Shown: positions 44,580 through 61,485 of the stretch, in pieces | How positions within the stretch are numbered: the stretch's first letter is position 1 | Layout of the letters: every line of letters begins with the position of its first letter | Origin: Acidimicrobiia bacterium | GTDB taxonomy: Bacteria; Actinomycetota; Acidimicrobiia; Acidimicrobiales; Poriferisodalaceae | DNA: 64,000 nucleotides | Assembly (NCBI GenBank): GCA_022822525.1 | Contig: JAJEBN010000100.1 | Coordinates: forward strand, 1 to 64,000 | Direction: 5' to 3' | Notes under the pieces: model-generated | Database searches by the model: none | What the model was told of the DNA's origin: nothing | What the model saw: the letters and a program-made list of their open reading frames with translations, nothing else | Position numbers and translations under genes: made by a program

Positions 44580-45392
44580 CTACCAGCGCGCCGTGGGATC
44601 GATCGAGAGCACCTCCACCATCTCCGCGTGCAGCGCCGCGAAGTGCGGTGAGCGCTGGCCGGCGCGTCCGCCCGACGGCGCCGCCTTGGGGCCGGCCACG
44701 GGCCACTGCGGCTGATACGCCACTGGCGCGAGCGCATCGTCGACGATGCTCTGCCATCGGGCGAGCTGCTCGCCGAGCTCGCACGTCATGACGCCTGCAG
44801 CAACGAGCCCCGCCTCCGAGCAGCCCGCCGGAGCGTCGAAGAGCTCGCTGGCCATCGGCGCGAGCTGGTCGAACAGCGGCAGCAGGTGAGCGATGCCTGC
44901 GTCGGTTCGCAGCAGCCGGTCGAGCAGTCCGGTGGCGTGGCGCAGGTGCGACCGCTCCTCGGCGAGCGCGCGACGGGCGACCGCTCCGAGCGACGCCCAC
45001 GACGAGTCCGCCAACGCGCTCCAGCGCACCGTCTCTGCGGTGTCATACAAGAAGTGGCGCACCAGCGTCTCGGCCCAGTCGTGGCAGGGCAGCTCGGTGA
45101 TGTGAGCGCAGAGGTACTCGTGCGACTCGCGCCCGTATGCCATCGCGTCGATGTCGTCGCCCAGCAGCCCGTACAGCGCGCGGGCGTGGCCCAGCTCGTC
45201 CTGGCTGATCGACGTCAGCGCCAAGTCCTCTTCGAGGAACGGCCCCACAGCGATCCACCATCCCAGGTTCTGCCCGATGCACAGCTCGTCGTCGGCGAGC
45301 GCCAGCACGAGGTCGCGGGCACCCGGGACGTCCGCAGGATCGCCGGTCGGTTCGATTGCGGCGACGCGTTCGGGTTCGCCCATGTCGTTCAT
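44580..45392 (-). CDS. paaC: 1,2-phenylacetyl-CoA epoxidase subunit PaaC
   Basis: ALADDELCIGQNLGWWIAVGPFLEEDLALTSISQDELGHAR. Confidence 0.93.
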   Translation of the reverse strand: MNDMGEPERVAAIEPTGDPADVPGARDLVLALADDELCIGQNLGWWIAVGPFLEEDLALTSISQDELGHARALYGLLGDDIDAMAYGRESHEYLCAHITELPCHDWAETLVRHFLYDTAETVRWSALADSSWASLGAVARRALAEERSHLRHATGLLDRLLRTDAGIAHLLPLFDQLAPMASELFDAPAGCSEAGLVAAGVMTCELGEQLARWQSIVDDALAPVAYQPQWPVAGPKAAPSGGRAGQRSPHFAALHAEMVEVLSIDPTARW

Positions 45393-45661
45393 GCCGGCTC
45401 GGCGTTGCCGGCCTGGCGCAGATCTCGCAGGAACGTGCCGTCATTGTGACGGTGGGCACGATCGGCCATCTGCAGTTCGGTGGGATCGGCGACCAGCAGG
45501 TCCTCGCGGGCCACGACCCACATCTGCTCCCCCTCGGACCTGCGTGCGTAGCAGTCGCGGGCGAAGCTCAGCGCCAAGTCGTCGTCGGGAGCTTCGAGTG
45601 CGCCGACATGGGTGAAGGGATCCTTGCCTGCGCGCTTGAGGAACACCTCGTAGGTCTTCAT
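45389..45661 (-). CDS. paaB: 1,2-phenylacetyl-CoA epoxidase subunit PaaB
   Basis: MKTYEVFLKRAGKDPFTHVGALEAPDDDLALSFARDCYARRSEG. Confidence 0.93.
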   Translation of the reverse strand: MKTYEVFLKRAGKDPFTHVGALEAPDDDLALSFARDCYARRSEGEQMWVVAREDLLVADPTELQMADRAHRHNDGTFLRDLRQAGNAEPA

Positions 45662-46173
45662 GCAGGAATCCTGCTCGTCGGGCTGTCGACCCTGCCGACG
45701 ACTTCCACGGGATTGCGGCACTGCGGGCACCACTCGACGCTGCGGCAGGGCGTCGGACCGAAGTCCGAACGGTGCTCCAGGACGGCGCTGCCGCAGATGG
45801 GGCAGCTCGCATCCGCGGACCGGCTTCGCACCGCCACGGAATACTCGCGAGCCAGAAAGCTCACTGCAGATGGTGCGATCCGATCCGCTGTCCACACGGG
45901 ATCGTCGATGAAGGCCACCTCGATCGAGACGTCAGCACCGGCGCACGCTGCACGCGCGGCGTCGGTGACATCGCGAGCGATGACGTCGAGCGCGGGGCAG
46001 CCGAGCATGGTCGGCACGAGCTCGATGCGCACCGCCGAGCCGTCGCCGGCTGCGCTGACCCGTTCGAGGATGCCCAGCTCGGAGATGGTGACCTCGGGAT
46101 ATTCCGGGTCGCACACCATCGATACCGATCGGCGGATGGCCGCGACGAGACCAGCGGGAGCATCTGCGCTCAT
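45658..46173 (-). CDS. paaD: Phenylacetate oxygenase maturation protein PaaD (MIP18 family)
   Basis: VCDPEYPEVTISELGILERV; CPICGS…CPQCRNP. Confidence 0.9.
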   Translation of the reverse strand: MSADAPAGLVAAIRRSVSMVCDPEYPEVTISELGILERVSAAGDGSAVRIELVPTMLGCPALDVIARDVTDAARAACAGADVSIEVAFIDDPVWTADRIAPSAVSFLAREYSVAVRSRSADASCPICGSAVLEHRSDFGPTPCRSVEWCPQCRNPVEVVGRVDSPTSRIPA

Positions 46174-47090
46174 GCGGGCACCGCAGCCGCTTCGTCCAGC
46201 GCGTCGCGCACCCAGGCGGCGCCGTCCCACGCGTTGCGGGCATCGCGCAGGCGCCGCTCGCTGTCGGGTCCCCGGCCGGCGATGGCCGCCTTCAGCGCAT
46301 CCCAGTCGATCTCACCGCTGACCCAGCGCCCCGTGTCGGGGTCCTGGTGCAGGTCGGGGTCGGGAATGGTGAAGCCGGCAGCGGTCAGCTGCGGCACCAT
46401 CTTCTGCACGAACCGGTCGCGCAGCACCTCGTTGCGCTCGGACTTGATGTGCCAGCGCAGCAGCACATCGTTCGGCGACGAGTCGGGGCCGAACAGCTGC
46501 ACTGCCGGCCACCACCAGCGGTCGAGGCCTTCCTGCATCAGGTCGTGCTGCTGGGAGGTGCCCTTGGCCATCTTCAGCAGCAGCTCCTCGCCGTTGCGCA
46601 TGTGAAAGCCCTCTTCGGCGATGATCCGCCGCAGGATGCGCTTGTAGGGGCCGTAGCTGCAGTTCTTGAAGACGGCCTGCTGGCTGGCGAGCGCCGCCGC
46701 GTCGACCAGGTACGCGATCGCGATCTGGTCGCCCCACGAGTGCGCCCGGTAGTGGAACACGTTGTGGAACGTGGTGCGCCCCGCCAGCAGGTCGGCGGTC
46801 ATCTCGTCGCGGGTCTTGACGCCCATGTCGGCCGCCACCATGTACAGCAGGTGCGCGTGGCCGATCTCGTCCTGGGTCTTGGCCAGCGCCGTCAGCTTGT
46901 TCGCCAGCCCCGGCGCCTTGGCGATCCAGTCACGCTCGGTCAGCCCGCCCATGTACTCGCTGTTGGCGTGCAGCTCGATGAACCGGAACACTGCCTCGCG
47001 GTACGCGTCGGGCATGTCGTCGTCGGGCTCCACCAGCCCGCCGTCGTCGAGGAAGGCCTCGAAGTCCTCCATGGAGTCCCAGCTGCGCAT
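46170..47090 (-). CDS. paaA: 1,2-phenylacetyl-CoA epoxidase subunit PaaA
   Basis: ALAKTQDEIGHAHLLYMVAADMG; AEEGFHMRNGEELLLKMAKG. Confidence 0.95.
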   Translation of the reverse strand: MRSWDSMEDFEAFLDDGGLVEPDDDMPDAYREAVFRFIELHANSEYMGGLTERDWIAKAPGLANKLTALAKTQDEIGHAHLLYMVAADMGVKTRDEMTADLLAGRTTFHNVFHYRAHSWGDQIAIAYLVDAAALASQQAVFKNCSYGPYKRILRRIIAEEGFHMRNGEELLLKMAKGTSQQHDLMQEGLDRWWWPAVQLFGPDSSPNDVLLRWHIKSERNEVLRDRFVQKMVPQLTAAGFTIPDPDLHQDPDTGRWVSGEIDWDALKAAIAGRGPDSERRLRDARNAWDGAAWVRDALDEAAAVPA

Positions 47091-47186
47091 AGGCACCTCC
47101 CGGTCAGGGCAACGATCCGAATGCTACGCCTGCGCTGTGCAGGGTTGACCGCACCGTTGCCACGGCGGCTCCCACGCCGGTCGGCT

Positions 47187-48551
47187 TCACACCGGCGGGG
47201 CGTGGGTGTGATGATCGGTCGCGCGCTGGAACGCCTCGCCCACTGCAGCAAGGGTCCGCTCGGCGAACGGTCGGCCGATGAGCTGGAAGCCGATCGGCAG
47301 ACCATCGGGAGCGAAACCGCCGGGCAGCGCGATGGCCGGCAGCCCGGCCCCGTTGACCGGGAAGGTGAACTGGGTCGTCGCGGGAATGAGCGGCACCCCG
47401 TCGAGCTCGACCGCACCGTGGGGCAGCACCTGGTTGGGGTTGACCGGGGCGACGATCAGGTCGACGCCCTGATCGTCGAACACCTCCATGCACGCCCGCT
47501 CGAACGCCACCCGCTGTGCCTGGGCTGACGCGAACTCCGTCCCGGAGACCGCAGCGCCCGCTTCGAGAATGCCGCCGACCTCCTCGCCGAGCAAGTCGGG
47601 GTGGTCGGTGCGCAGCCCTTCGAGCAGCGCTGCCGACTCGGCGAACACGATCGTGACGCCCGCCGGGGTGTGCTCGGCGCTGTTGGGCACCTGCACCGGG
47701 TTCACGCCGGCCACGATCGTGCGGAGCACCTCGACGGCTGCGTCCATCACCGCGCCGACGTGCGGATCGACGTCGATCCCCTCGAAGAAGCTGTCGCCTG
47801 GCACCCCGAGGGTGAGTTCGCCCGGGTCCGCGGCGTCGCTCAGCGGCGTCGCCGACGAGAACGGGTCGTCGGGTGACTGGCCCGCGATGACCTCCAGCAG
47901 GATCCGGCAGTCCTCGGCCGTGCGCGCCATCGGGCCGACGGTGTCGTAGGTCCACGAGATCAGGTGCACGCCGTGGCGGGGCACCGCGCCGCGTGTCGTC
48001 TTGATCCCCGTTGTGCCGCAGCAGTTCGACGGGATGCGGACCGACCCGCCCGTATCGGTGCCGAGCGCCCCGAACAGCTGCCGTGCGGCGAGGGCGGCCG
48101 CACTGCCTCCCGAGGAACCGCCGGTCGAGCGCTGCGGGTTCCACGGGTTGTGCGACGCCGGGCACGAGACACCGAACGCCAGCTCGTGCGTATTCGTCTT
48201 GCCGACGATCACCGCCCCGGCCTGGCGCAGGCGCTGCACGACGGTCGCGTCGTGGTCGGGCACGAACCCCCGCAGGGCGTCGCAATTCGCCTCGGTCGCG
48301 ACGCCTTCGGTGAAGAAGAGGTCCTTGAGGGCGATGGGCACGCCGTGCAGCGGGCCGGCGATCCCTCCTCCGTCGAGCTGTTGGGCGACCGCACGAGCCG
48401 CGTCAGCCCCGATCGAGGCAAATGCGCTCACCGTGGGCTCCGTCCGCTCGATGCTGGCGAGGCAGGCGTCGAGCAACTCGACCGCACTCAGATCTCGGGC
48501 TCTGATGGCCTGCGCTGCCGCGGCGAGGCTCATCTGGGTCGGTTCGGTCAT
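47187..48551 (-). CDS. Amidase-signature family amidase
   Basis: GPLHGVPIALKDLFF; PQRSTGGSSGGSAAALAARQ; GTDTGGSVRIPSNCCGTTGIK. Confidence 0.95.
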   Translation of the reverse strand: MTEPTQMSLAAAAQAIRARDLSAVELLDACLASIERTEPTVSAFASIGADAARAVAQQLDGGGIAGPLHGVPIALKDLFFTEGVATEANCDALRGFVPDHDATVVQRLRQAGAVIVGKTNTHELAFGVSCPASHNPWNPQRSTGGSSGGSAAALAARQLFGALGTDTGGSVRIPSNCCGTTGIKTTRGAVPRHGVHLISWTYDTVGPMARTAEDCRILLEVIAGQSPDDPFSSATPLSDAADPGELTLGVPGDSFFEGIDVDPHVGAVMDAAVEVLRTIVAGVNPVQVPNSAEHTPAGVTIVFAESAALLEGLRTDHPDLLGEEVGGILEAGAAVSGTEFASAQAQRVAFERACMEVFDDQGVDLIVAPVNPNQVLPHGAVELDGVPLIPATTQFTFPVNGAGLPAIALPGGFAPDGLPIGFQLIGRPFAERTLAAVGEAFQRATDHHTHAPPV

Positions 48552-48625
48552 GGTTGCGGTCCTTTGTACTTGGTCGTCTGTTGTCGCATGACTGATGTGT
48601 TTGAGCTGGTCAGGCTGGTTTGGGT

Positions 48626-49312
48626 TCACAGGGCGAGGCGTCCCGACAGCCGGTCCCCCAGACCGGCCTCGCCGGCAGTGCCTGTGTCGACGATCTCGCC
48701 CTTCTCGAGCACGACGAAGCGGTCGGCGAGCCGCAGCGCCAGCGCCAGGTGCTGCTCCACCAGCAGCACCCCGCGGCCCTGCTGCCTCGCCAGCGCTAGG
48801 GCGTCGCCGAGCAGCCCGACATTCGAGGGCTGCAAGCCCTCAGTCGGCTCGTCCATCAACAGGATGGACGCGGTCGATGCCAGCGCCGACGCAGCCGCGA
48901 GCATCTTCTGCTCGCCGCCCGAGAGGGTGCCCGCTCGCTGAGCCTCACGACCCGCCAACGACTCGCCGAACATGCCCAGCACGCGGCCGTGCTCGGCCGG
49001 CGGATGCCCGCTCAGCCGCAAGTTGTCGCCGACCGAGAACTGGCTGAACAGCGACCGCTCCTGGAAGGCAGCTCGCAGTCCGGCTCGAACACGGCGAGAG
49101 GGCGGCACCCGCGTGATGTCGGCGCCGCCGAGCCTGAGCTGCCCGCCGGTCGCCCTCAGCAAGCCGATCATCGTCCGCACCAGAGTGGTCTTGCCGGCGC
49201 CGTTGCGTCCGACCAGCGCCACGATCTCGCCTTGGGCGACGCAGAAGCTGACGCCGTGCAGCACCGGCACGCTGCCGTAGCCCGAGCGCAGCCCGTGTGC
49301 TTCGAACCGCAT
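48626..49312 (-). CDS. Branched-chain/amide-type ABC transporter ATP-binding protein (LivF-like)
   Basis: LVGRNGAGKTTLVRTMIGLL; LSGGEQKML; LLMDEPTEGL. Confidence 0.93.
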   Translation of the reverse strand: MRFEAHGLRSGYGSVPVLHGVSFCVAQGEIVALVGRNGAGKTTLVRTMIGLLRATGGQLRLGGADITRVPPSRRVRAGLRAAFQERSLFSQFSVGDNLRLSGHPPAEHGRVLGMFGESLAGREAQRAGTLSGGEQKMLAAASALASTASILLMDEPTEGLQPSNVGLLGDALALARQQGRGVLLVEQHLALALRLADRFVVLEKGEIVDTGTAGEAGLGDRLSGRLAL

Positions 49313-51084
49313 CAGCTGTCGACCCCCGCGTAGATCGCCTGCACATCGGGGTCGCTCTCGACCTCGGCAACAGTGCCGTCGGCAATGACCTCACCACGCG
49401 CGAGCACGGTGACGCGATCGGCCACGGCGCGGATGAACGCCATGTCGTGCTCGACGATCACGATCGGAAGGCGATGGGAGCGGTGAAGCTCACGCAGCAG
49501 CGCAGCCGCTTCGAGGCTCTCGGCGACTGTCATGCCTGCGGTCGGTTCGTCGAGCAGCAGCAGCCGGCAGCGCCCTGCCAGCGCCATCGCGATCTCCAGC
49601 CACTGCTTGTCACCGTGGGAGAGATCGCCCGCCCGCATGTCGAGGCGCTCGCTGAGCTGCGTCCGTTCGAGCACCTCCAGCGCCGGCCGCGGCACCGCCG
49701 TACTCCAAGAGCGACGGACGAGTGCCCACGGCGACGAACGAGTCCCCCAGGCTGCGATGGCCACGTTGGCGGCCACGGACAGGTCGTCGATGAGCTGGGG
49801 CGATTGGAACTTGCGACTCACGCCGTGTCTGGCGAATTCCCAGGCGTGACGGCCCGTGTGCTCGGCGCCGAACACCAGCACCCTCCCGGACTGGCAGCCC
49901 TGCTGGCCCGAGAGGATGTCGAGCAGTGTGGACTTGCCGGCGCCGTTCGGCCCGATGAGGCAACGGAGCTCTGCGTCCTCCATGGTGAGCGTGACGCCAT
50001 CGAGCAACCGGAAGAAGCCGAAGCTCTTGTGCACATCCCGGGCTTCGAAGACTGCCGCAGCGTCAGCCGACGGCGCCTCGGCGCCTGCACCTGGGCCCGA
50101 CGGCGCGTCAGCGTCGGTGGCAGCGGGCCGCAGATTCGGCTGCTGGCGGCGGGCCGGCCGACCAGCCAACCGCTGGGCGCTGGGGACCAGCCCATGGGGC
50201 ATCACCACCACGACGGCCACGAAGATCAGGCCGGTGGCGAGCGTCCAGTACTGCAGCCAGACGTCGGCCAGCGTCGCGGAAGCGAAGTTGATCGCCATCG
50301 CACCGATGACCGGGCCCACGATGGTTCCCCGCCCGCCGACCAGCGTCCACAGCACCACGCTGGTGGCCAGCGAGAACCCGAAGATCTGCGGCGACACGAA
50401 GCTCGTGCGGTGCACGTACAGCGCACCGGCGAAACCGGCGAGTGCGCCACCCACGGTGAACGCCCAGATCTTGATCTGGACCGTCTTGTAGCCCAACGCC
50501 TCCATGCGACGCTCGTTGGAACGGATGCCGATCAGCACCGCACCGATCGGGCGCGTGACCAGCGTGCCGACCACGGTGATCGCAACGATGGCCAGCACGC
50601 TGACTGCGACGTCCTGCGCGGCATCGGAGAGCTCGATCCCGAGGGCGCCGAGTCGCGGGACGCCGGTCAGCCCGTTGAAGCCTCCCGTGACGTCTCGCCA
50701 CTGCTCGGCGAGCTGCTCCAAGGTGAGTGACAGCACCAGCGTGAGCAGGCCCACCACGACTGCGGACGGTCGGCGCCGCAGTATCGCGACGCCGAGGGCT
50801 GCGGCGACACCAGCGCCCACCGCAGCGGAGCCGACGAGCATCGGCAGGCTCAGCGACGGCGCGGCGGTGGCGACCTTCGCCGACGTGTACGCAGCGATGC
50901 CGAAGGGCAGCAGCTGGCCCAGCGAGAGGATGCCGGAGTATCCCCACACGAAATCGAGGCTCACGGCGAGCGCGGCGAACACCAGGAACAGCGAGAGCTG
51001 TCCCGAGCGGTAGCCGCCGAACGCGCCGCTGAACACCACGGCCGCAAGTGCGCAGGCTGCGCCGGTGGCGAGTGCGCGCCTCAT
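49312..51084 (-). CDS. Fused LivM-like permease and LivG-like ATPase
   Basis: One uninterrupted frame: permease (MRRALATGAACALAAVV…LIFVAVVVVMPHGLVPS) then ATPase (LIGPNGAGKSTLLDILSG…LLLLDEPTAGM). Confidence 0.92.
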   Translation of the reverse strand: MRRALATGAACALAAVVFSGAFGGYRSGQLSLFLVFAALAVSLDFVWGYSGILSLGQLLPFGIAAYTSAKVATAAPSLSLPMLVGSAAVGAGVAAALGVAILRRRPSAVVVGLLTLVLSLTLEQLAEQWRDVTGGFNGLTGVPRLGALGIELSDAAQDVAVSVLAIVAITVVGTLVTRPIGAVLIGIRSNERRMEALGYKTVQIKIWAFTVGGALAGFAGALYVHRTSFVSPQIFGFSLATSVVLWTLVGGRGTIVGPVIGAMAINFASATLADVWLQYWTLATGLIFVAVVVVMPHGLVPSAQRLAGRPARRQQPNLRPAATDADAPSGPGAGAEAPSADAAAVFEARDVHKSFGFFRLLDGVTLTMEDAELRCLIGPNGAGKSTLLDILSGQQGCQSGRVLVFGAEHTGRHAWEFARHGVSRKFQSPQLIDDLSVAANVAIAAWGTRSSPWALVRRSWSTAVPRPALEVLERTQLSERLDMRAGDLSHGDKQWLEIAMALAGRCRLLLLDEPTAGMTVAESLEAAALLRELHRSHRLPIVIVEHDMAFIRAVADRVTVLARGEVIADGTVAEVESDPDVQAIYAGVDS

Positions 51085-51935
51085 GGGTTGGCTGCCTCGA
51101 CGGGCACCCGGCGCAACTGCAGCATCAGCACCGCAAGGGCCAGCGAGGCGATCTGCGCCCAGACCGCGTCGTAGAAGTGGATGACCCCGGTCTGCACGGC
51201 TGCTACCACCAGCGCTCCTGCGATCACGCCCCACAACCGGTTGAAGCCGCCGACGATCACCACCAGGAACGCTCCGGGCAGGTAGGCGAGCCCGGCCTGG
51301 GGTTCGATGGCTCCCAGCGGAGCGACCAGCGCGCCTGCGATCCCGGCGGTTGCAGCGCCGATGCCGAACGCACAGAAGTTGGCGATGCCGGTGCGCACGC
51401 CGCAGGCATCGGCGAGGTCCCGGTCGGCGACGATCGCCCGCACGGTCAGCCCGAAGCGTGACCGGGTGAATGCGAGCAGCGTCACCACCACCACTACGAC
51501 GGCGATGCCGATGAGCACATAGCGGTAGGTGGGGAACAGCACCCCGAGTGCCCGCGTCGCTCCCGGCACCGGATTGGGAACACCACGAAAGTCCTTGGTG
51601 AAGATCAGCTCGACGGCCTGCCGCAGGCAGATCGACAGACCGAACGTGGCCAGGATCGTCACCTCCGGCCGGCGATGGATGCGACGGATCAGCCCGACCT
51701 CGATGCATGCACCCAGCACGAACAGCACGACGGCGGCCAACGGCAGCGACAGCCAGTGGCTGAGCCCGTTGGCGTGGGTGACGTAGGCGACGTACGCCCC
51801 GATCATCACGAACTCGCCGTGCGCGAGGTTGATGATCCCCATCAGCCCGAACACGATGCCGAGACCCAGCGCGACGATCGCAAGCGTCGCGAACAGGCTC
51901 AGACCGTTGAGCAGTTCGAGCGTCAGCGCATCCAA
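51081..51935 (-). CDS. Branched-chain/urea-type ABC permease (LivH-like)
   Basis: GLGIVFGLMGIINLAHGEFVMIGAYVAY. Confidence 0.94.
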   Translation of the reverse strand: MDALTLELLNGLSLFATLAIVALGLGIVFGLMGIINLAHGEFVMIGAYVAYVTHANGLSHWLSLPLAAVVLFVLGACIEVGLIRRIHRRPEVTILATFGLSICLRQAVELIFTKDFRGVPNPVPGATRALGVLFPTYRYVLIGIAVVVVVVTLLAFTRSRFGLTVRAIVADRDLADACGVRTGIANFCAFGIGAATAGIAGALVAPLGAIEPQAGLAYLPGAFLVVIVGGFNRLWGVIAGALVVAAVQTGVIHFYDAVWAQIASLALAVLMLQLRRVPVEAANP

Positions 51936-51960: not shown

Positions 51961-53301
51961 CTAGGGACTGCAGGTCTCGTCGGGCTCCACCGCCGGAAAT
52001 GACTGGACGATGAGCTGCGAGCCGTCGGACTGGATCTCCGCCACATAGATCGGCTGCGCGAGATGACGGCTGCCGGTGATGGAGATGTCTCCCGTCGGCG
52101 TCGAGAGCGACAGGCCTTCGAGAGCCGCTGCCACAGCCGCCGTGTCGGTAGTGCCGGCTGCGTTCGCCGCTGCGGCGTAGAGCAATGCAGCGTCGTAGAT
52201 GTGCGAGCTGAAGGTCATGTGCGGCGGCGCGTCAGCCCCGAATTGCTCGAAGTAGCGAGCCACGAATGCGTTGTTGGCAGGGTTGTCGACTTCCTTGAAG
52301 TAACCCAAGGTGACCCGCATGCCGGCGGTGACCGACGGCCCCATCACTCCGAGCACGTTCTCCTCATAGATGTTCGCCAGCCGCGGAATGGCGCTCTGGC
52401 CGATGCCGAAGTCGACCGCCTGGGTCTCGAAGGCGATGGCGTCGCCGCCGACGAGCGCCGGGAAGATCAGGTCTGCGCCCGAGCCCGCGATCTGCTGGGC
52501 GACCGAGGAGAAGTCCTGGGTGCCGAGGGGGACGTATTCCTCACCCACCACTTCGCCTCCTGCGGCCTCGATGTACTGGCGGGCGAGCTCGAAGCTTCGC
52601 CGCGGCCACACGTAGTCGTTGCCGAGCAGGAACCACGTGCTTCCGCCGGTCTCGTCCATCATCCACGGGATGACCGGCGCGAGCTGCTGGCTGGGCACCT
52701 CGCCCGTGTTGAACATCACCGGCGAGCACTCGCCGCCCTCGTAGAGGGCCGCGTAGATGTACAGCACGCCGGCATCTTCAGCGAGCGGCTCGGCGGCTTC
52801 GCGCGTCGCGCTGGAGTGGGTGCCGAGCACGACGTCGACCCCGTCCGATTCGATGAGCTGTTCCATGGCCTGGCGCCCGACGGCGGGATCGGTGGCGTCG
52901 TCGGCGAGGTACGTCTCGACCGGGCGGCCGTTGATGCCGCCGGCGGCGTTGATGTCCTCTTCGATGAACTCTGCGATATTGGCCGTGGGCTGGCCGAAGA
53001 TGCCGGCGGGACCGCTGTTGGAGAACAGGATCCCGATGCGCACCGGCTCCCCCGACGGCTCGGCGGGCTCATCCGCTGCGGTGGTCGCAGGTGCTTCGGT
53101 GGGCTCTGGTGCGGCATCGCCGTCGTCCGTCGGCTCATCGACGGGGGCCGGCGCCGCCTCGGCCTCGGTCGCCGCCGGTTCTGCGACTGCGGGTTCATCG
53201 TCGCTCGTCGCGCACGCCGCTGCCATCCCGAGCAGCAGCGCCATCATGATTGCTGCGGTTCGACAACGGGACCGCGCCCGTGGTTTCTGTGTGCACCCCA
53301 C
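51961..53301 (-). CDS. UrtA/AmiC-family substrate-binding lipoprotein (urea/short-chain amide type)
   Basis: ALLLGMAAACATS lipobox; RIGILFSNSGPAGIFGQPTANIAEFIEEDINAAGGINGR; GGGGGAGG SD 8 nt before the GTG start. Confidence 0.88.
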   Translation of the reverse strand: MGCTQKPRARSRCRTAAIMMALLLGMAAACATSDDEPAVAEPAATEAEAAPAPVDEPTDDGDAAPEPTEAPATTAADEPAEPSGEPVRIGILFSNSGPAGIFGQPTANIAEFIEEDINAAGGINGRPVETYLADDATDPAVGRQAMEQLIESDGVDVVLGTHSSATREAAEPLAEDAGVLYIYAALYEGGECSPVMFNTGEVPSQQLAPVIPWMMDETGGSTWFLLGNDYVWPRRSFELARQYIEAAGGEVVGEEYVPLGTQDFSSVAQQIAGSGADLIFPALVGGDAIAFETQAVDFGIGQSAIPRLANIYEENVLGVMGPSVTAGMRVTLGYFKEVDNPANNAFVARYFEQFGADAPPHMTFSSHIYDAALLYAAAANAAGTTDTAAVAAALEGLSLSTPTGDISITGSRHLAQPIYVAEIQSDGSQLIVQSFPAVEPDETCSP

Positions 53302-53321
53302 GGCGTCAACCTCCCCCAATA

Positions 53322-53341
53322 TGTGAGTAGATGTTGACATA
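53322..53341 (-). promoter_or_regulatory. Copy B of a shared 20-mer (tatgtcaacatctactcaca on the minus strand), 5' of the SBP gene
   Basis: 17/20 identical to copy A at 55269-55288. Confidence 0.5.
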
Positions 53342-53354
53342 TTGTCCTGTCAAC
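53333..53354. promoter_or_regulatory. Inverted repeat gttgaca-N8-tgtcaac upstream of the SBP gene
   Basis: Perfect 7-bp arms. Confidence 0.55.
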
Positions 53355-53430: not shown

Positions 53431-54867
53431 TCAGGCGGGCGCTGCGACGGGAAGCTCGTCGATCACCCGGACCCCCGCCGGTGTCGCCTCTCCCAGCAGC
53501 AGCGACTCCAGCGAGCCGCCCGTGCCGCAGCGGCGCGGACCGCGGTAGCTGCTGGTGCGCAAGCCGTTCAACAGCGACGAGGGATCGGTGCCCCCGCCCG
53601 ACCTGCACGCGGCCGCCCAGGTGTGCACCGCCTCGTACACACCTTCCGCGGCTGCGGACACCGGAGGAGCGCACTCGCCGAAGCGATCGGCATAGCGCCG
53701 CAGGAATTCACGGTTCTCTGCGGAATCCATGCCGACGAAATAGCCGAGCGCATTCCAGATGCCCGCAGCCGAATCTCCGAGATGCTCCACCACGGCATCG
53801 TCCATGAGCGGCGCGAACGTACGAGTGGTCGAGCGAAGCCCCGACAACGAGAACTCGCTCTCGAAGCGGACGTGGTCCTGCCCGACAAAGCTCGACACGA
53901 CGTGGTCGGTGCCGTGTTCGCCGATGGCCGAGATCACCGGCGTGAAGTCCTCGGTTCCCAGCGGCACGTAGCCCTCGCCGCTGACGGTGCCGCCCATGCG
54001 CTCGATGACCTCCCGCGCGGCCGTGCCCACCGCCCGTGGCCACGAGTAGTCGTTGCCGGCCAGGAACCAGCGGCTCCCGCCGGTCGCCTCGGCCAGCAGC
54101 GGGAGGGCCCGGTGCAACTGGTCGAGCGGCCGCTCGCCGAAGTGGATCAGCAACGGATGGGTGGGAACCACCTCGCTGGTGGGCGTGTAGAGGTACGGGA
54201 TGCCCTGGGCAACGGCGATCGGTGAGGTGGCCGAGTAGGTCGCCGAGGAATGCATGCCCACCACGGCGGCTATGCCCGATACGCCACAGAGACGGCGCAT
54301 CGCGACCACGCCGGTGCCGGGATCGGTGGCGTCGTCGGCCACCAGCAGACGAACGTCGCGACCTGCCACGCCGCCGTCGGCGTTGATCTCCTCGGCGGCG
54401 AGCTGCGCGCAGTTGACCGTGGAGCGGCCCAGGATCCCGGCACTGCCCGACAGCGACGTGAGCAGTCCGAGCGGAACCTCCCAGCCCTCGGCGTCGACGC
54501 CACCGAGGAGTCCCAGGTCGGCACCGAGGCGCATGAACTCGCGATCGTCGATGCTGACCCGGATGCGCAGCCGGGTGCCGCCGCTGCGCAGCGGATCGAG
54601 GTGGCATGCCACATGCCCGAACCAGGGCGACTCGTGCACAAGGTCGATCCGCCGAACCGGTTTGCAGCTCAGCACCCGTGCCGTTCCGTGAACCCGCGAC
54701 CCCTCGCCGATGGGTAGGGCGAGCCGCACCAGCGCGCCGGGCGCCAGCGCCTCGGCCTCGGAGCCGAACAGCCAGCCCAGCGACGGATCGCCGGATCCGA
54801 ACAGCGCAAACAACTCGCTCGCGTCTGCCGCTAGCCGCACCTCGCTGCTGAGAACGAGTTCAGCCAT
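53431..54867 (-). CDS. N-terminal SRPBCC (AHSA1-like) domain fused to an AmiC/UrtA-like periplasmic-binding fold, no signal peptide
   Basis: SRPBCC-like: HGTARVLSCKPVRRIDLVHESPWFGHVACHLDPLRSGGTRLRIRVSID; binding fold: PLGLLTSLSGSAGILGRSTVNCAQLAAEEINADGGVAGRDVRLLVADDATDP. Confidence 0.82.
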   Translation of the reverse strand: MAELVLSSEVRLAADASELFALFGSGDPSLGWLFGSEAEALAPGALVRLALPIGEGSRVHGTARVLSCKPVRRIDLVHESPWFGHVACHLDPLRSGGTRLRIRVSIDDREFMRLGADLGLLGGVDAEGWEVPLGLLTSLSGSAGILGRSTVNCAQLAAEEINADGGVAGRDVRLLVADDATDPGTGVVAMRRLCGVSGIAAVVGMHSSATYSATSPIAVAQGIPYLYTPTSEVVPTHPLLIHFGERPLDQLHRALPLLAEATGGSRWFLAGNDYSWPRAVGTAAREVIERMGGTVSGEGYVPLGTEDFTPVISAIGEHGTDHVVSSFVGQDHVRFESEFSLSGLRSTTRTFAPLMDDAVVEHLGDSAAGIWNALGYFVGMDSAENREFLRRYADRFGECAPPVSAAAEGVYEAVHTWAAACRSGGGTDPSSLLNGLRTSSYRGPRRCGTGGSLESLLLGEATPAGVRVIDELPVAAPA

Positions 54868-54876
54868 CTCAAGCCC

Positions 54877-55251
54877 CTAGGCGCTCAGCTCGTCGTCTCG
54901 CTGACCAGGGTCGCCATGTCTGCTGCCGGCGCCGGCGACCGCTTCGTTCATGGCGTCCGCGAGCTGCTCGAGGGAGTTCTGGTACACGGAGGCGAGAAAG
55001 GCAACCACCGTGTCTGCGGGCGTCGAGGTCAGCGAGTAGTGCCGGTAACGGCCGTCGCGACGCTCGGTGATCAGTCCCGCAAGTCGCAGGATGCGCAGAT
55101 GCGACGACACCGCCGTGCGGCCGACGCCGTCGAACCGGGAGGCGATCTCGCCCACCGTGAGCTCGCCGTGCTCGCCGATCAACCCCAAGATCGCCCGGCG
55201 CGTCTGGTCCGCCAAAGCAGAGAACGTGGCATCGCTCGTGGGGTCGGTCAT
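54877..55251 (-). CDS. ArsR-family winged-helix repressor
   Basis: ALADQTRRAILGLIGEHGELTVGEIASRFDGVGRTAVSSHLRILRLAGLITERRDGRYRHYSL. Confidence 0.93.
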   Translation of the reverse strand: MTDPTSDATFSALADQTRRAILGLIGEHGELTVGEIASRFDGVGRTAVSSHLRILRLAGLITERRDGRYRHYSLTSTPADTVVAFLASVYQNSLEQLADAMNEAVAGAGSRHGDPGQRDDELSA

Positions 55252-55268
55252 GTGCGCAGCCGTATCAG

Positions 55269-55288
55269 TACGTCAACAACTATTCACA
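55269..55288 (+). promoter_or_regulatory. Copy A of the shared 20-mer (tacgtcaacaactattcaca), overlapping ACTAT-N6-ATAGT (55279-55294), upstream of arsR
   Basis: 17/20 identical to copy B; located 18 bp upstream of the arsR start. Confidence 0.5.
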
Positions 55289-55387
55289 CATAGTGCCATA
55301 CGGGCCGAATGCTGCGCCTGCGCCTGGGGCCGCTGCGGCTTCGCGCATCGACCGAGGGGCGCGCCGTCACTGCGTCCGAGGCCGGCC

Positions 55388-56643: not shown

Positions 56644-59600
56644 TTAGGCCGAAGTGGGCCTTGACGTTGGCGTCGACGACCACGCACCCCATCCCTGAGC
56701 GTTCTGGGCCCTGACTCGAACCCTGTAGGTCTTGCCGTTTGTCAGCGACGAAAGCACCGTGCTCAAGTTGGTCAGGTCGGAGTGGGACACGGCCGTATTC
56801 GTCGCCCAGCCGGTGCCGACCGCGGAGCAGTCGTCGTCGGTGTCGTTGCAGTACGCCACTTCGTACTGGGTGATGTCCGAGTGGTTCTTGGCGGGTGCCG
56901 TCCACGTCACGGTGATCTGTGTGTTGCCAGCCGTCAGTCGAGGCGCCGACGGCGGATTCGGTGCCCCCGGTGTTGCAGTTTCTTGACTCGTCCAGGCACT
57001 CTCGCCATGACTCCTGCTGATGGTGCGCATCTCCACGAGGTGCGAGTTGCCGTTGGTGATCCCGGAGATCGTGTAGCGCGTCGAACTCGAGCCGATCCCG
57101 GTCCTGGTCGTCCAGTCGTTGTAGTCGCTGGTGCAGTCCGTCGTGGTGTCGGTGTCGTCGCAGTACCGCAGTTGGAAGCTCGTGATCGTCGACCCCCGGG
57201 CATTCGGCCTGGGCCACGTCACGATCAGCTGCCGGTTGCCCGATGCCAGCGTCAGCGTGGGCGCATCGGGCGCGCCTCTCGGCATGCCCATGGCAGAGGC
57301 TGACCACGGGCTCTCACGGTTGTCGTTGGTCTTCGCACGTACCCGCACTTGGTACGCGGTGCCATTGACGAGGCTCCCGATGGTCGTGCTAGTGCTGTCG
57401 TCCGAATGGGTGTGCGTCTCCCAGGTGGCGGCCCACGTCGGATTTGAAGCACAGGTGAGAACCGTGGTGTCGGAGTTGGTCGCGGTGCAGGCCCGGTAGC
57501 GCACGTCATAGCCGTTGATGGTCGAACCGTTGGATCTCGGCACGATCCAATTCACGGTCAACACGGTGTCGCCCGTGGTCAATCTCGGCGTGGTGGGTGC
57601 TGAGGGCGCGCCCACCGGCGTGCCGATCGCCGGCGTTTCGGACCACGGCCCCCAGCCCTTCTCGTTCTGGGCGCGCGCTCGCACCTGATAGGCGGTGCCA
57701 TTGGTCAGCCCGGTGATGATCCTCGACAGGCTCGCACCGGTGTCGCCGTGAACCCGCCAGTTCCCCCATGTCGGATTCGTGGCACAGGTCTTGACCGCGG
57801 TGTCGGAGTCGATCGCGGTGCAGGCCCGGTAGGCCACTTCGTAGTGCTCGATCGACGAGTCACGATTGTCTGGTTCTGTCCACTCGACGCGCAGCTGGCG
57901 GTCGTCCGCCTGCGGCGTATCGATGACCGGAGCAGCGGGTACCGCAGCCGGGATAGCCGACTTGATCGGCGTCCAGCCGCTGTTGCCGGTGCCACTCCGG
58001 GCTCGAACCTGCACTTGGTATGCGGTGTCGTTTGTCAGCGAGGAAATCGTGGTTGACGTGGTGCCGGCGGCGACAGTTGTCGACATCCATTGCTGGTTCC
58101 ACTGCGGACTCGACGTGCAGTCTTTCCGTGTCGCTGTGCAGTCGCGGTACTCCACTTCGTAGTTGTCGATGGTGGATCCGTGCGACTCCGGCTCGTTCCA
58201 CGACACCACGAGCTGCATGTGGCTTGGCTCCAAGGTCAGCCCGGTGGGTGTCGACGGAGCCGCCAGAGGGGTGGTGCCGACAACGGGCGACCAGGGCCCG
58301 AGGCCGTTGGCGTTGCGGGCTCTCACCCGCGCCTCGTACTTGGTGCCATTGGTCAGCCCTGTGATGGTCGCAGCGGTGCTGCTGGCCGCGTAGGTCCGCT
58401 CGGCCCAGTTCCCCCACGTCGGATTCGTGGCACAGGTCTTGACCGCGGTGTCGGAGTCGGTCGCGGTGCAGGCCCTGTATCCCACGATGTACTGGGTGAT
58501 CGCCAGCCCGTTGCTGCCTGGCTCGCTCCACGAGAGGCTGAACTTGCGGTCGCCCGGGTTGATGTTCGGAGCATCGGGAGCTTCGGGCCGCAGTGACGGC
58601 GTGCCCGTCGCGGACGACGACCACGGGCCCAAGCCCTGGCCTGCGCCGCCGACATCGTTGACGGCTCGGACGCGCACCCGGTAGGTGGTGCCGTTGTTCA
58701 ACGACGTGATCGTGTAGGTGGTCTCGGGCGGGTCTCCGCCGCTCCCCGTGACTGTGCCTGGCGATGACCAGTCGCCGTCGATGCTGCAATCCGCCGTGCT
58801 CACGCAGTGCGCGACGTCGTAGCGAACGATGGCCGAACCGTTGTCGGCCGGCGCCTTCCACGCCACCACCAGCGATTCGTTGCCCGGCGTCAGCGTGGGA
58901 GTCGCGGGCTTGGCCGGCTTGCCGAGCGGCGTCGATTCTTCCGATGCCGAGTACGGCCCGACGCCAGTGGCAATGCGGGCCCGCACTCGCACCTGGTACT
59001 TGGTGGCATTCGCAAGGTTCGTGATCGTCAACCGGAGGTCGGTGAGGTCGGTGTGGGTTCTTGTCTGCCAGCCGCCCCAACGCGGATTCGAGCTGCAATC
59101 CCTCGGCGTCGCGGTGCACGCCCGGAACTGGACGTTGTAGCCGTTGATCGTGGTGCCGTTATCCGTAGGCGCCGTCCACGAAGCGACGATCTGGCGGTCC
59201 CCGGCTACGAGCGTCGGCATTCCAGGGGCGTCGGGCAGGGCCCTCGGCGTACCCGTCCTGCTCGCCGACCACGGGCCAATGCCTTGGTCTGTGCCGCCGA
59301 GACTGTTGATGGCCCGGACGCGCACCTTGTAGGCCGTGTCATTGTTCAGCCCGGTGATTTCGTGCCTCGTGTCGGTGCCTGTGTCGAAGGCATCAAGCCA
59401 GTCTGTTGACGTGCTGGCACAGGTGCCGGTGCAGTACTCGACGTCATAGCCGGTGATGTCGAGACCGTTGTCGGCCGGCGCAACCCAGGTCACCACGAGC
59501 TTCTGGTTACCTGGCTCCGCGGTCGGGGTGCTCGGCCTCGCCGGCACCGAGACCGGTGTCGTCTTGCTGGCTGTCGACCACGGCCCCACGCCGTTGGCGT

Positions 59601-61485
59601 TGCGAGCCCGCACCTGCACCTCGTAGGCGGTGCCGTTGACCAGCCCAGTGATCGTCACGATCTTGCCGGTACCGGAATGGCTGCGCGCCCGCCAGCTGCC
59701 CCAGGTCACGTCGTCGTCATCGGACTCGCAGGTCAGCACCGTCGTGTCGCCATCGGTTGCGGTACACGCCCGGTACTGCACGTCGTAGTCGGTGATGGCC
59801 GACCCGGAGTATCCGGGCTCGTTCCATTGCACGAGGATCTGGCGGTCGCCCTCGGTCAAAGCAGGGGCGCGCTCGAAGCTCGGCAGCTCCTCAGGTGTTG
59901 CAGACTGAGTTGGCGACCAGTCGCTCTCGCTCCCGCCGCTGCGGGATCGCACCTGCACCTCGTGCTTGACGCCGTTGCTCAGCTTGGTGATCGTGGTGGT
60001 GGTGCCGGTGCCCGAATGGCTGTGGGGCGTCCAGCTGCCGCATGTCAGGCTCGAGCCGCACGTCCGGTATCGAAGGTCGTAGCCGTCAATGGTTCCGCCG
60101 CTCGGGGGCGTCGACGGCGCCCACGTCACCTTCAACTGCTCGTTCGCGGCTTCCACGGTCAGGCTGGCCGGAACCGAGGGCCGCCCTGTCTGCACTTCCG
60201 GTATGCCCGACACGATCTGCGACCATGAGCCGAGCCCGAAAATGTTGCGGGCCCGTACCCGCACTTGGTAGGCGGTCCCGTTGGCGAGGCCGGTGATGGT
60301 CGTGCTGGTGCCCGTGCCCGAGTGGGCATGTGCGGTCCAGCCGCCCCAGCTCGCGCCGGACGTGCAGGTGCTCGGCGTGGCCGTGCACGCGCGGTACTCC
60401 ACCACGTAGCCGGAGACCGCTGCACCGACTGCGCTGGTGGGCGCCCTCCACGACACTGCCAGACCGGCGTTCCGGGCAGACGCCGCGAGCGACGTCGGCG
60501 TGCTCGGCGGATCGGTGCCGATGGCCGTCAGCGTGCCTGCCGCGGCACGCGCCGCAGTATCGATGCGGTCCGATCCGCTGATCCTGTGCAGAGCCGCCGT
60601 CGGGGCGAGGGTGCGCAGGCGGGCATGCAAGCTGGTGTCGAGCGCCGCGCTCCCACCAACCAGCACGATCGCACGCGGCCGCAGCTCCTCGATGCGGCGC
60701 TCGGTGGGAGCGGTCAGCGCACTCGTCTGGGAGTACAGCACTGCTCCGCCGGTGGTGATGGCCGCGTAGGCAGCGGCAACTCCCATGTCTGCTGGGCTCC
60801 ACCCGTTCGCGACCACCACGGTGGTGGAGAGGTTGGGCGCCGCCGCCGCTGCGGTGTCGGTACGGGACGCACCGCTGTGGCGCGGCACGCTCTGCACCGA
60901 TGGCGCGAGCTCTCGGACTCGATCGGCGAGCGACGCTGCGAGCACCACCGTGCCTCCGACGAATTCGACCTGCAAAGGCTGCTGCTCGCGGATGATGCGT
61001 TCGGTCGGCGCCGTGAGGTCGTCGGCGTTGGCCAGCAGCACTGCTGCGTTGGGCCTTGTCGCCGCCAACGCAGCCGCCACGCCCGTGTCCGCGGCGCTGA
61101 AGCCGTTCGCCACAATGAATGTGGTGGCGTTCGACGGCACTGCCTTCGCAGCCGTGTCGAAGCGGTCGGCGCCCTCGATCCGCCGGACTGCGGCACCGCC
61201 AACCAGTGCGACCACCTCGTCTTGCACTGCGGTTGACAGCGCAGCCGTGCCGCCGACCAGGATCACCGCCGACGGCTGGCGGTCTCGGATGAAGCTTGCT
61301 GTACGGGCGGTGAGCTCTCTCGAGTTCGCATACAGCACCACTGCGTCGGATTGGCTGCCGCTCTCAAGGGCTGCGAGGGCCGATGCAACGGCTGAGTCGG
61401 CAGAACTCCAGCCGTTGGCGATGACCACGGTGCCGATGGACCGAGTCTGCGCCGACGCCGCGGGTGCCAGCACGGCTGCGATCAA
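56644..61485 (-). CDS. Large cell-wall-anchored surface protein: three CWB2 repeats then many FN3 modules
   Basis: GADRFDTAA / GASRTDTAA / GSDRIDTAA CWB2 motifs; repeated P.aP..P…V.W..P…I..Y.V.YR and ITGLTNGTAYQVRVRA. Confidence 0.93.
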   Translation of the reverse strand: MIAAVLAPAASAQTRSIGTVVIANGWSSADSAVASALAALESGSQSDAVVLYANSRELTARTASFIRDRQPSAVILVGGTAALSTAVQDEVVALVGGAAVRRIEGADRFDTAAKAVPSNATTFIVANGFSAADTGVAAALAATRPNAAVLLANADDLTAPTERIIREQQPLQVEFVGGTVVLAASLADRVRELAPSVQSVPRHSGASRTDTAAAAAPNLSTTVVVANGWSPADMGVAAAYAAITTGGAVLYSQTSALTAPTERRIEELRPRAIVLVGGSAALDTSLHARLRTLAPTAALHRISGSDRIDTAARAAAGTLTAIGTDPPSTPTSLAASARNAGLAVSWRAPTSAVGAAVSGYVVEYRACTATPSTCTSGASWGGWTAHAHSGTGTSTTITGLANGTAYQVRVRARNIFGLGSWSQIVSGIPEVQTGRPSVPASLTVEAANEQLKVTWAPSTPPSGGTIDGYDLRYRTCGSSLTCGSWTPHSHSGTGTTTTITKLSNGVKHEVQVRSRSGGSESDWSPTQSATPEELPSFERAPALTEGDRQILVQWNEPGYSGSAITDYDVQYRACTATDGDTTVLTCESDDDDVTWGSWRARSHSGTGKIVTITGLVNGTAYEVQVRARNANGVGPWSTASKTTPVSVPARPSTPTAEPGNQKLVVTWVAPADNGLDITGYDVEYCTGTCASTSTDWLDAFDTGTDTRHEITGLNNDTAYKVRVRAINSLGGTDQGIGPWSASRTGTPRALPDAPGMPTLVAGDRQIVASWTAPTDNGTTINGYNVQFRACTATPRDCSSNPRWGGWQTRTHTDLTDLRLTITNLANATKYQVRVRARIATGVGPYSASEESTPLGKPAKPATPTLTPGNESLVVAWKAPADNGSAIVRYDVAHCVSTADCSIDGDWSSPGTVTGSGGDPPETTYTITSLNNGTTYRVRVRAVNDVGGAGQGLGPWSSSATGTPSLRPEAPDAPNINPGDRKFSLSWSEPGSNGLAITQYIVGYRACTATDSDTAVKTCATNPTWGNWAERTYAASSTAATITGLTNGTKYEARVRARNANGLGPWSPVVGTTPLAAPSTPTGLTLEPSHMQLVVSWNEPESHGSTIDNYEVEYRDCTATRKDCTSSPQWNQQWMSTTVAAGTTSTTISSLTNDTAYQVQVRARSGTGNSGWTPIKSAIPAAVPAAPVIDTPQADDRQLRVEWTEPDNRDSSIEHYEVAYRACTAIDSDTAVKTCATNPTWGNWRVHGDTGASLSRIITGLTNGTAYQVRARAQNEKGWGPWSETPAIGTPVGAPSAPTTPRLTTGDTVLTVNWIVPRSNGSTINGYDVRYRACTATNSDTTVLTCASNPTWAATWETHTHSDDSTSTTIGSLVNGTAYQVRVRAKTNDNRESPWSASAMGMPRGAPDAPTLTLASGNRQLIVTWPRPNARGSTITSFQLRYCDDTDTTTDCTSDYNDWTTRTGIGSSSTRYTISGITNGNSHLVEMRTISRSHGESAWTSQETATPGAPNPPSAPRLTAGNTQITVTWTAPAKNHSDITQYEVAYCNDTDDDCSAVGTGWATNTAVSHSDLTNLSTVLSSLTNGKTYRVRVRAQNAQGWGAWSSTPTSRPTSA
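57757..57827. repeat. 71-bp intragenic repeat, copy 1 (partner at 58405-58475)
   Basis: 69/71 identical by eye. Confidence 0.9.
58405..58475. repeat. 71-bp intragenic repeat, copy 2
   Basis: 69/71 identical to 57757-57827. Confidence 0.9.

Follow-up and report, generated by a model that had tools for sequence, protein, structure and literature searches.

A predicted NhlD/NhlC-type ArsR and SRPBCC–AmiC/UrtA-fold sensor pair beside an ABC importer and amidase operon in Acidimicrobiia

In this study, a 64,000-nucleotide stretch of DNA from an Acidimicrobiia bacterium (the window) was investigated, and we observed that an arsR gene and the gene of a fusion between an SRPBCC domain and an AmiC/UrtA-type fold stand directly before an ABC importer and an amidase. 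We estimate a probability of about 75% that this pair is an NhlD/NhlC-type amide-responsive switch controlling the amide (or urea) importer and the amidase in Acidimicrobiia, with ArsR acting as the repressor and the ligand-bound sensor relieving the repression. The preliminary description of this DNA had put the pair forward as a new amide/urea-sensing system, which is not upheld, since the same pair, architecture and operator were found in nitrile hydratase (NHase) and amidase clusters of Rhodococcus (including strain BAA-870), Pseudonocardia, Streptomyces and others, making the system NhlD/NhlC-type and not categorically new. The pair is thus known in kind, while its target, the extra domain and the common DNA switch appear to be new. 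The regulatory reading of the pair is strong, because ArsR lies directly upstream in 60 of 61 full-length fusion homologues across Actinobacteria and a palindrome precedes both arsR and the importer, and it is plausible that the fusion senses an amide or urea and acts on ArsR. The locus lies on contig C70 of a 3.55-Mb genome; among its named relatives, metagenome assemblies of Acidimicrobiia come closest.

The arsR and fusion reading frames were recovered where the preliminary description had placed them, on the minus strand and separated by 9 nt, and the features of the locus are collected in Table 1.

Table 1. Features of the sensor–importer–amidase locus (positions in the window)
Feature	Position	Strand	Support
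Operator-like 24-bp palindrome upstream of arsR	55268..55291	.	Conserved upstream of arsR in relatives
ArsR-family repressor (predicted), 124 aa	54877..55251	-	Pfam HTH_20 2.8e-11, HTH_5 1.6e-8; NF033788
Whole fusion gene, 478 aa, NhlC-type sensor (predicted)	53431..54867	-	
SRPBCC domain, fusion residues 1 to about 120	54508..54867	-	PF10604/PF08327 in homologues, 3q6a profile match, model, Foldseek
UrtA/AmiC-type ligand-binding domain, residues 131-445	53533..54477	-	Peripla_BP_6 3.7e-73, Foldseek
Operator-like 24-bp palindrome upstream of importer operon	53319..53342	.	Conserved upstream of SBP in relatives
Lipoprotein SBP of importer	51961..53301	-	Peripla_BP_6 1.3e-97, Peripla_BP_5 4.3e-82, hydrophobic N-terminus
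LivH-type permease	51081..51935	-	BPD_transp_2 1.8e-36
Fused LivM permease and LivG ATPase, one 590-aa ORF	49312..51084	-	BPD_transp_2 3.7e-30, ABC_tran 5.3e-26
LivF-type ATPase	48626..49312	-	ABC_tran 6.5e-29
Amidase-signature amidase	47187..48629	-	PF01425 1.7e-95

Domain calls, AlphaFold and Foldseek agree with the earlier claim that the fusion joins an SRPBCC domain to a full UrtA/AmiC-type fold. The full-length model reached a pLDDT of 91.2 and a pTM of 0.91, with both folds matching PDB structures, and the SRPBCC domain modelled alone (pLDDT 89, pTM 0.78) was matched by Foldseek to SRPBCC/Bet v 1 structures, bearing out the SRPBCC fold expected from structure prediction. Pfam gave no match on residues 1-120 of the window fusion; among 30 homologous N-terminal domains, 16 matched Polyketide_cyc2 (best 1.2e-6) and 7 matched AHSA1, and a profile search with the N-terminal domain found 3q6a. 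With its helix-grip fold and this sequence support, the domain belongs to the SRPBCC superfamily, and its C-terminal helix is short (residues 108-117). For the binding domain, the best Foldseek match was the urea-binding protein 8tg1, followed by UrtA and by AmiC with amides bound, and the nearest solved structures are the urea-binding proteins 8tg1, 7s6e and 8hic and also AmiC. The structural matches of the fusion include 1qo0, which we take to be the complex of AmiC with AmiR. The protein had also been described as lacking a signal peptide, and this agrees with the hydropathy of its first 60 residues, where no signal-peptide-like stretch was detected and the maximum over 17 residues was 1.23, as compared with 2.09 for the neighbouring lipoprotein.

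Downstream of the fusion and on the same strand, Pfam confirmed the SBP, permeases, ATPases and amidase that had been reported there, the minus-strand order being arsR, fusion, lipoprotein SBP, LivH, LivM-LivG, LivF and amidase. The listed SBP start, ATG 53340 of the longest reading frame, falls within the operator-like palindrome, and by inspection the true start is probably GTG 53301, with the RBS-like GGGGGAGG upstream. After the amidase, PaaA and PaaC genes were noticed on the minus strand, flanking PaaD- and PaaB-like reading frames (44580-47096), and paaA is kept in this place only in the closest relatives (loci L001-L005); these Paa genes may hint at aryl-acetamide use. Elsewhere in the window (56644-61485, minus strand) lies the gene of a 1613-aa surface-type protein, in which a CWB2 cell-wall-binding domain and 11 fn3 stretches were recognised.

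A genome scan, together with a search across the order, recovered full-length relatives of the fusion from Acidimicrobiia, Pseudonocardia, Nonomuraea, Streptomyces, Amycolatopsis, Rhodococcus and others. The neighbourhood survey thus places the fusion in more than 60 homologous loci from many assemblies, which rules out an orphan gene or an assembly artefact. In many of the 61 loci the arsR stop and the fusion start overlap. No ArsR match was seen near the SBP-fold genes lacking SRPBCC (loci L059-L065, L067 and L069-L080), from which it follows that SRPBCC and an ArsR partner occur in company, and the domain is general to this family of sensors. In Acidimicrobiia the pair stands beside the ABC importer and amidase either codirectionally or divergently (divergent in L011 and L012), and in a maximum-likelihood tree these ABC-linked copies form one group, divided from all NHase-linked copies by a branch with 100/100 support. 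The ABC-linked copies are accordingly a sister clade of the NHase-linked pairs, which stands with the importer and amidase instead of with NHase.

The two palindromes of the locus follow the 24-bp consensus ATATGTCAACAATTGTTGACATAT. When the whole 3.55-Mb genome was searched with up to three mismatches, only two sites were obtained, both at the window locus, and the reversed control gave none. Again, with a weight matrix trained on the Acidimicrobiia sites alone, the highest-scoring site fell next to arsR or immediately behind the fusion gene in 35 of the 41 other loci, against about 4% expected by length, the 41 being an upper bound on the number of independent cases because the loci share ancestry. 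Within the order, each of the 12 ABC-linked fusion loci carries the palindrome, with best sites of 32-41 bits, and the 15 SBP-only loci, which reach no more than 6.4 bits, all lack it. The SBP-side copy has a TTGACC element on one side and the RBS on the other, and a simple scan for sigma-70 consensus promoters called no promoter at the proposed sites.

Concerning the ligand, the alignment showed that the AmiC positions S85, Y104, E109 and Y150 are kept in the fusion as S208, Y227, E232 and Y274. Additionally, H206, S207 and Y227 are common to the sensor and the neighbouring importer SBP in every ABC-linked locus, and the NHase-linked sensors mostly carry T, T and Q/H there; H and Y at these positions occur in unrelated SBPs too, so that the pocket argument is correlative. 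The pattern is consistent with the sensor and the importer SBP recognising the same compound, which is likely to be urea or a short amide. A phenylacetamide-like ligand is possible in the window genus, given the phenylacetate genes that come after the amidase.

The NHase-linked relatives provide the closest precedent for the pair. In Pseudonocardia, Rhodococcus and most other relatives the pair adjoins an amidase, an NHase alpha-subunit motif occurs near it in about 30 loci, and annotated NHase genes accompany it on the BAA-870 pNit, R. pyridinivorans pPE111 and P. aurescens pTC2 plasmids. The R. rhodochrous ATCC BAA-870 plasmid pNit carries arsR first, then the fusion, the NHase beta and alpha genes, an accessory protein gene, a cobalt transporter gene and an amidase gene, so placed that arsR and the fusion presumably stand where NhlD and NhlC would be expected in the L-NHase cluster. 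The window fusion shares 39% identity with the BAA-870 homologue over 449 columns (residues 1 to 445, E 2e-92), and the two ArsRs share 46% over 98 columns. We take the counterparts of the pair in R. rhodochrous J1 to be NhlD and NhlC; genetics in that strain reportedly showed nhlD to be an ArsR-like negative regulator and nhlC to be AmiC-like, required for amide-dependent expression. The study of NhlD/NhlC from the low-molecular-mass NHase cluster is referenced in PMC5391958 as Komeda et al. 1996, J Biol Chem 271:15796. According to the BAA-870 genome paper (PMC6941271), the plasmid carries a low-molecular-weight cobalt NHase cluster with its regulatory elements; arsR and the fusion gene look intact there (L112 5647-7416), although the same paper reports the NHase as constitutive. 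On plasmids of Rhodococcus sp. M8-35 and M8-20, an SBP-like gene near the NHase genes is interrupted by IS481 (L115 5947-8122). The genome under study has an NHase alpha gene of its own on another contig (C55:56826-57371), without operator or regulators, and regulation of this NHase by the window ArsR was ruled out, as the operator was not found there.

From these observations we infer a mechanism in which ArsR would bind both 24-bp palindromes, the one before its own operon and the one before the importer operon, and repress the two operons. A small amide or a urea-like compound, once imported, would occupy the AmiC/UrtA-type cleft of the cytosolic sensor. Ligand binding would alter the sensor–ArsR interaction, most likely by direct contact through the SRPBCC domain, ArsR would leave the DNA, and amide import and hydrolysis would be induced. 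Against this mechanism stand the reportedly constitutive NHase of BAA-870 and the sigma-70 scan that called no promoter. The direction of the effect could also be arranged otherwise, with the same parts but the opposite role for the ligand-free protein: the apo sensor would be a co-repressor keeping ArsR stably on its DNA, and the ligand would dissociate the complex, an AmiC-like sequestration in reverse. AmiC holds AmiR inactive until amide binds, and this, together with 1qo0 among the structural matches and a tight arsR–fusion translational coupling suggestive of fixed stoichiometry, speaks for such a co-repressor; however, NhlD is said to be a negative regulator in J1 that does not need NhlC as co-repressor, and we hold this arrangement to be rather unlikely, though worth keeping in mind.

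A sensor with two inputs seems improbable to us; in it, a small amide would go to the SBP domain, while the SRPBCC domain would take up a hydrophobic ligand of its own, e.g., an aromatic amide or acid. SRPBCC domains commonly bind hydrophobic ligands, and phenylacetate-degradation genes follow the amidase in the window genus, but the short C-terminal helix of the SRPBCC domain and the restriction of the paa genes to the closest relatives argue against a second ligand. Least credible of all is that ArsR is an ordinary metal sensor with which the fusion is merely co-transcribed. Though the window ArsR is called by NF033788, the NCBI 'metalloregulator' model, and cobalt-type NHases occur in many related clusters, it has no cysteine, hence neither a CxC motif nor a thiolate metal site of the metal-sensing ArsR/SmtB kind; cysteine was likewise absent from all 17 ABC-linked ArsR relatives counted, and other ArsRs have at most one or two. 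The near-constant co-occurrence with the fusion and the lack of metal genes in the window operon further disfavour metal sensing.

Returning to the amide-responsive switch, the odds seem to us even that the SRPBCC domain serves as an adapter letting an SBP-fold small-molecule receptor control a non-metal ArsR, and that the Acidimicrobiia branch re-uses this switch for amide/urea import. If the adapter reading is true, the joining of receptors to SRPBCC could put ArsR repressors under the control of arbitrary ligands. NHase clusters of this type belong to organisms used for acrylamide and nicotinamide production, and the family alignment, the domain boundary and the 24-bp operator together make the mechanism of amide induction directly testable and offer a ready amide-inducible switch for actinobacteria. 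Moreover, through the Acidimicrobiia branch the switch would be tied to the uptake of amides or urea in lineages that are uncultured and represented mostly by metagenomes.

In comparison with known systems, the fusion resembles AmiC of Pseudomonas aeruginosa as a cytosolic SBP-fold predicted amide sensor adjoining amidase genes; its fold and lack of a signal place it as a predicted receptor of the AmiC kind, AmiC is among its top structural matches, and the key pocket positions align. It differs in carrying an SRPBCC domain and in having as partner a DNA-binding ArsR in place of the ANTAR antiterminator AmiR, and the window has a candidate palindromic operator where AmiC/AmiR has a leader terminator. 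The suggestion that fusion and ArsR replace AmiC/AmiR therefore stands as an analogy and falls as a replacement, for the window locus has no ANTAR/AmiR-like gene, the sole ANTAR match of the genome being on contig C98, and nothing shows a former AmiC/AmiR; an AmiR-type partner at the locus was ruled out, the adjacent partner being ArsR. Among solved structures, UrtA and the other urea-binding proteins come closest to the binding domain, but UrtA-type proteins are exported transporter subunits, whereas the fusion has no export signal and is joined to SRPBCC, and it scored 138 bits with the UrtA NCBIfam model, far below the cut-off of 492.75. As in AHSA1/SRPBCC–ArsR pairs, an SRPBCC partner adjoins an ArsR repressor, and the modest support from ordinary AHSA1 loci of the relatives (ArsR nearby in 6 of 30) agrees with this, though the window SRPBCC domain is fused to an amide-binding-type fold. 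The likeness to NhlD/NhlC is the broadest, comprising an arsR gene directly upstream of a 470-480-aa AmiC-like protein, full-length homology to the sensor of the Rhodococcus L-NHase cluster with the SRPBCC-containing architecture seen in the BAA-870 homologue, a linked amidase, the palindrome that also precedes arsR in the homologous NHase cluster, and a common operator, as defined in this analysis, upstream of arsR and the regulated genes. No NHase gene lies in the window operon, and the pair is thus classed as a variant of the NhlD/NhlC type, forming a separate sister branch whose target is an ABC importer and amidase instead of nitrile hydratase.
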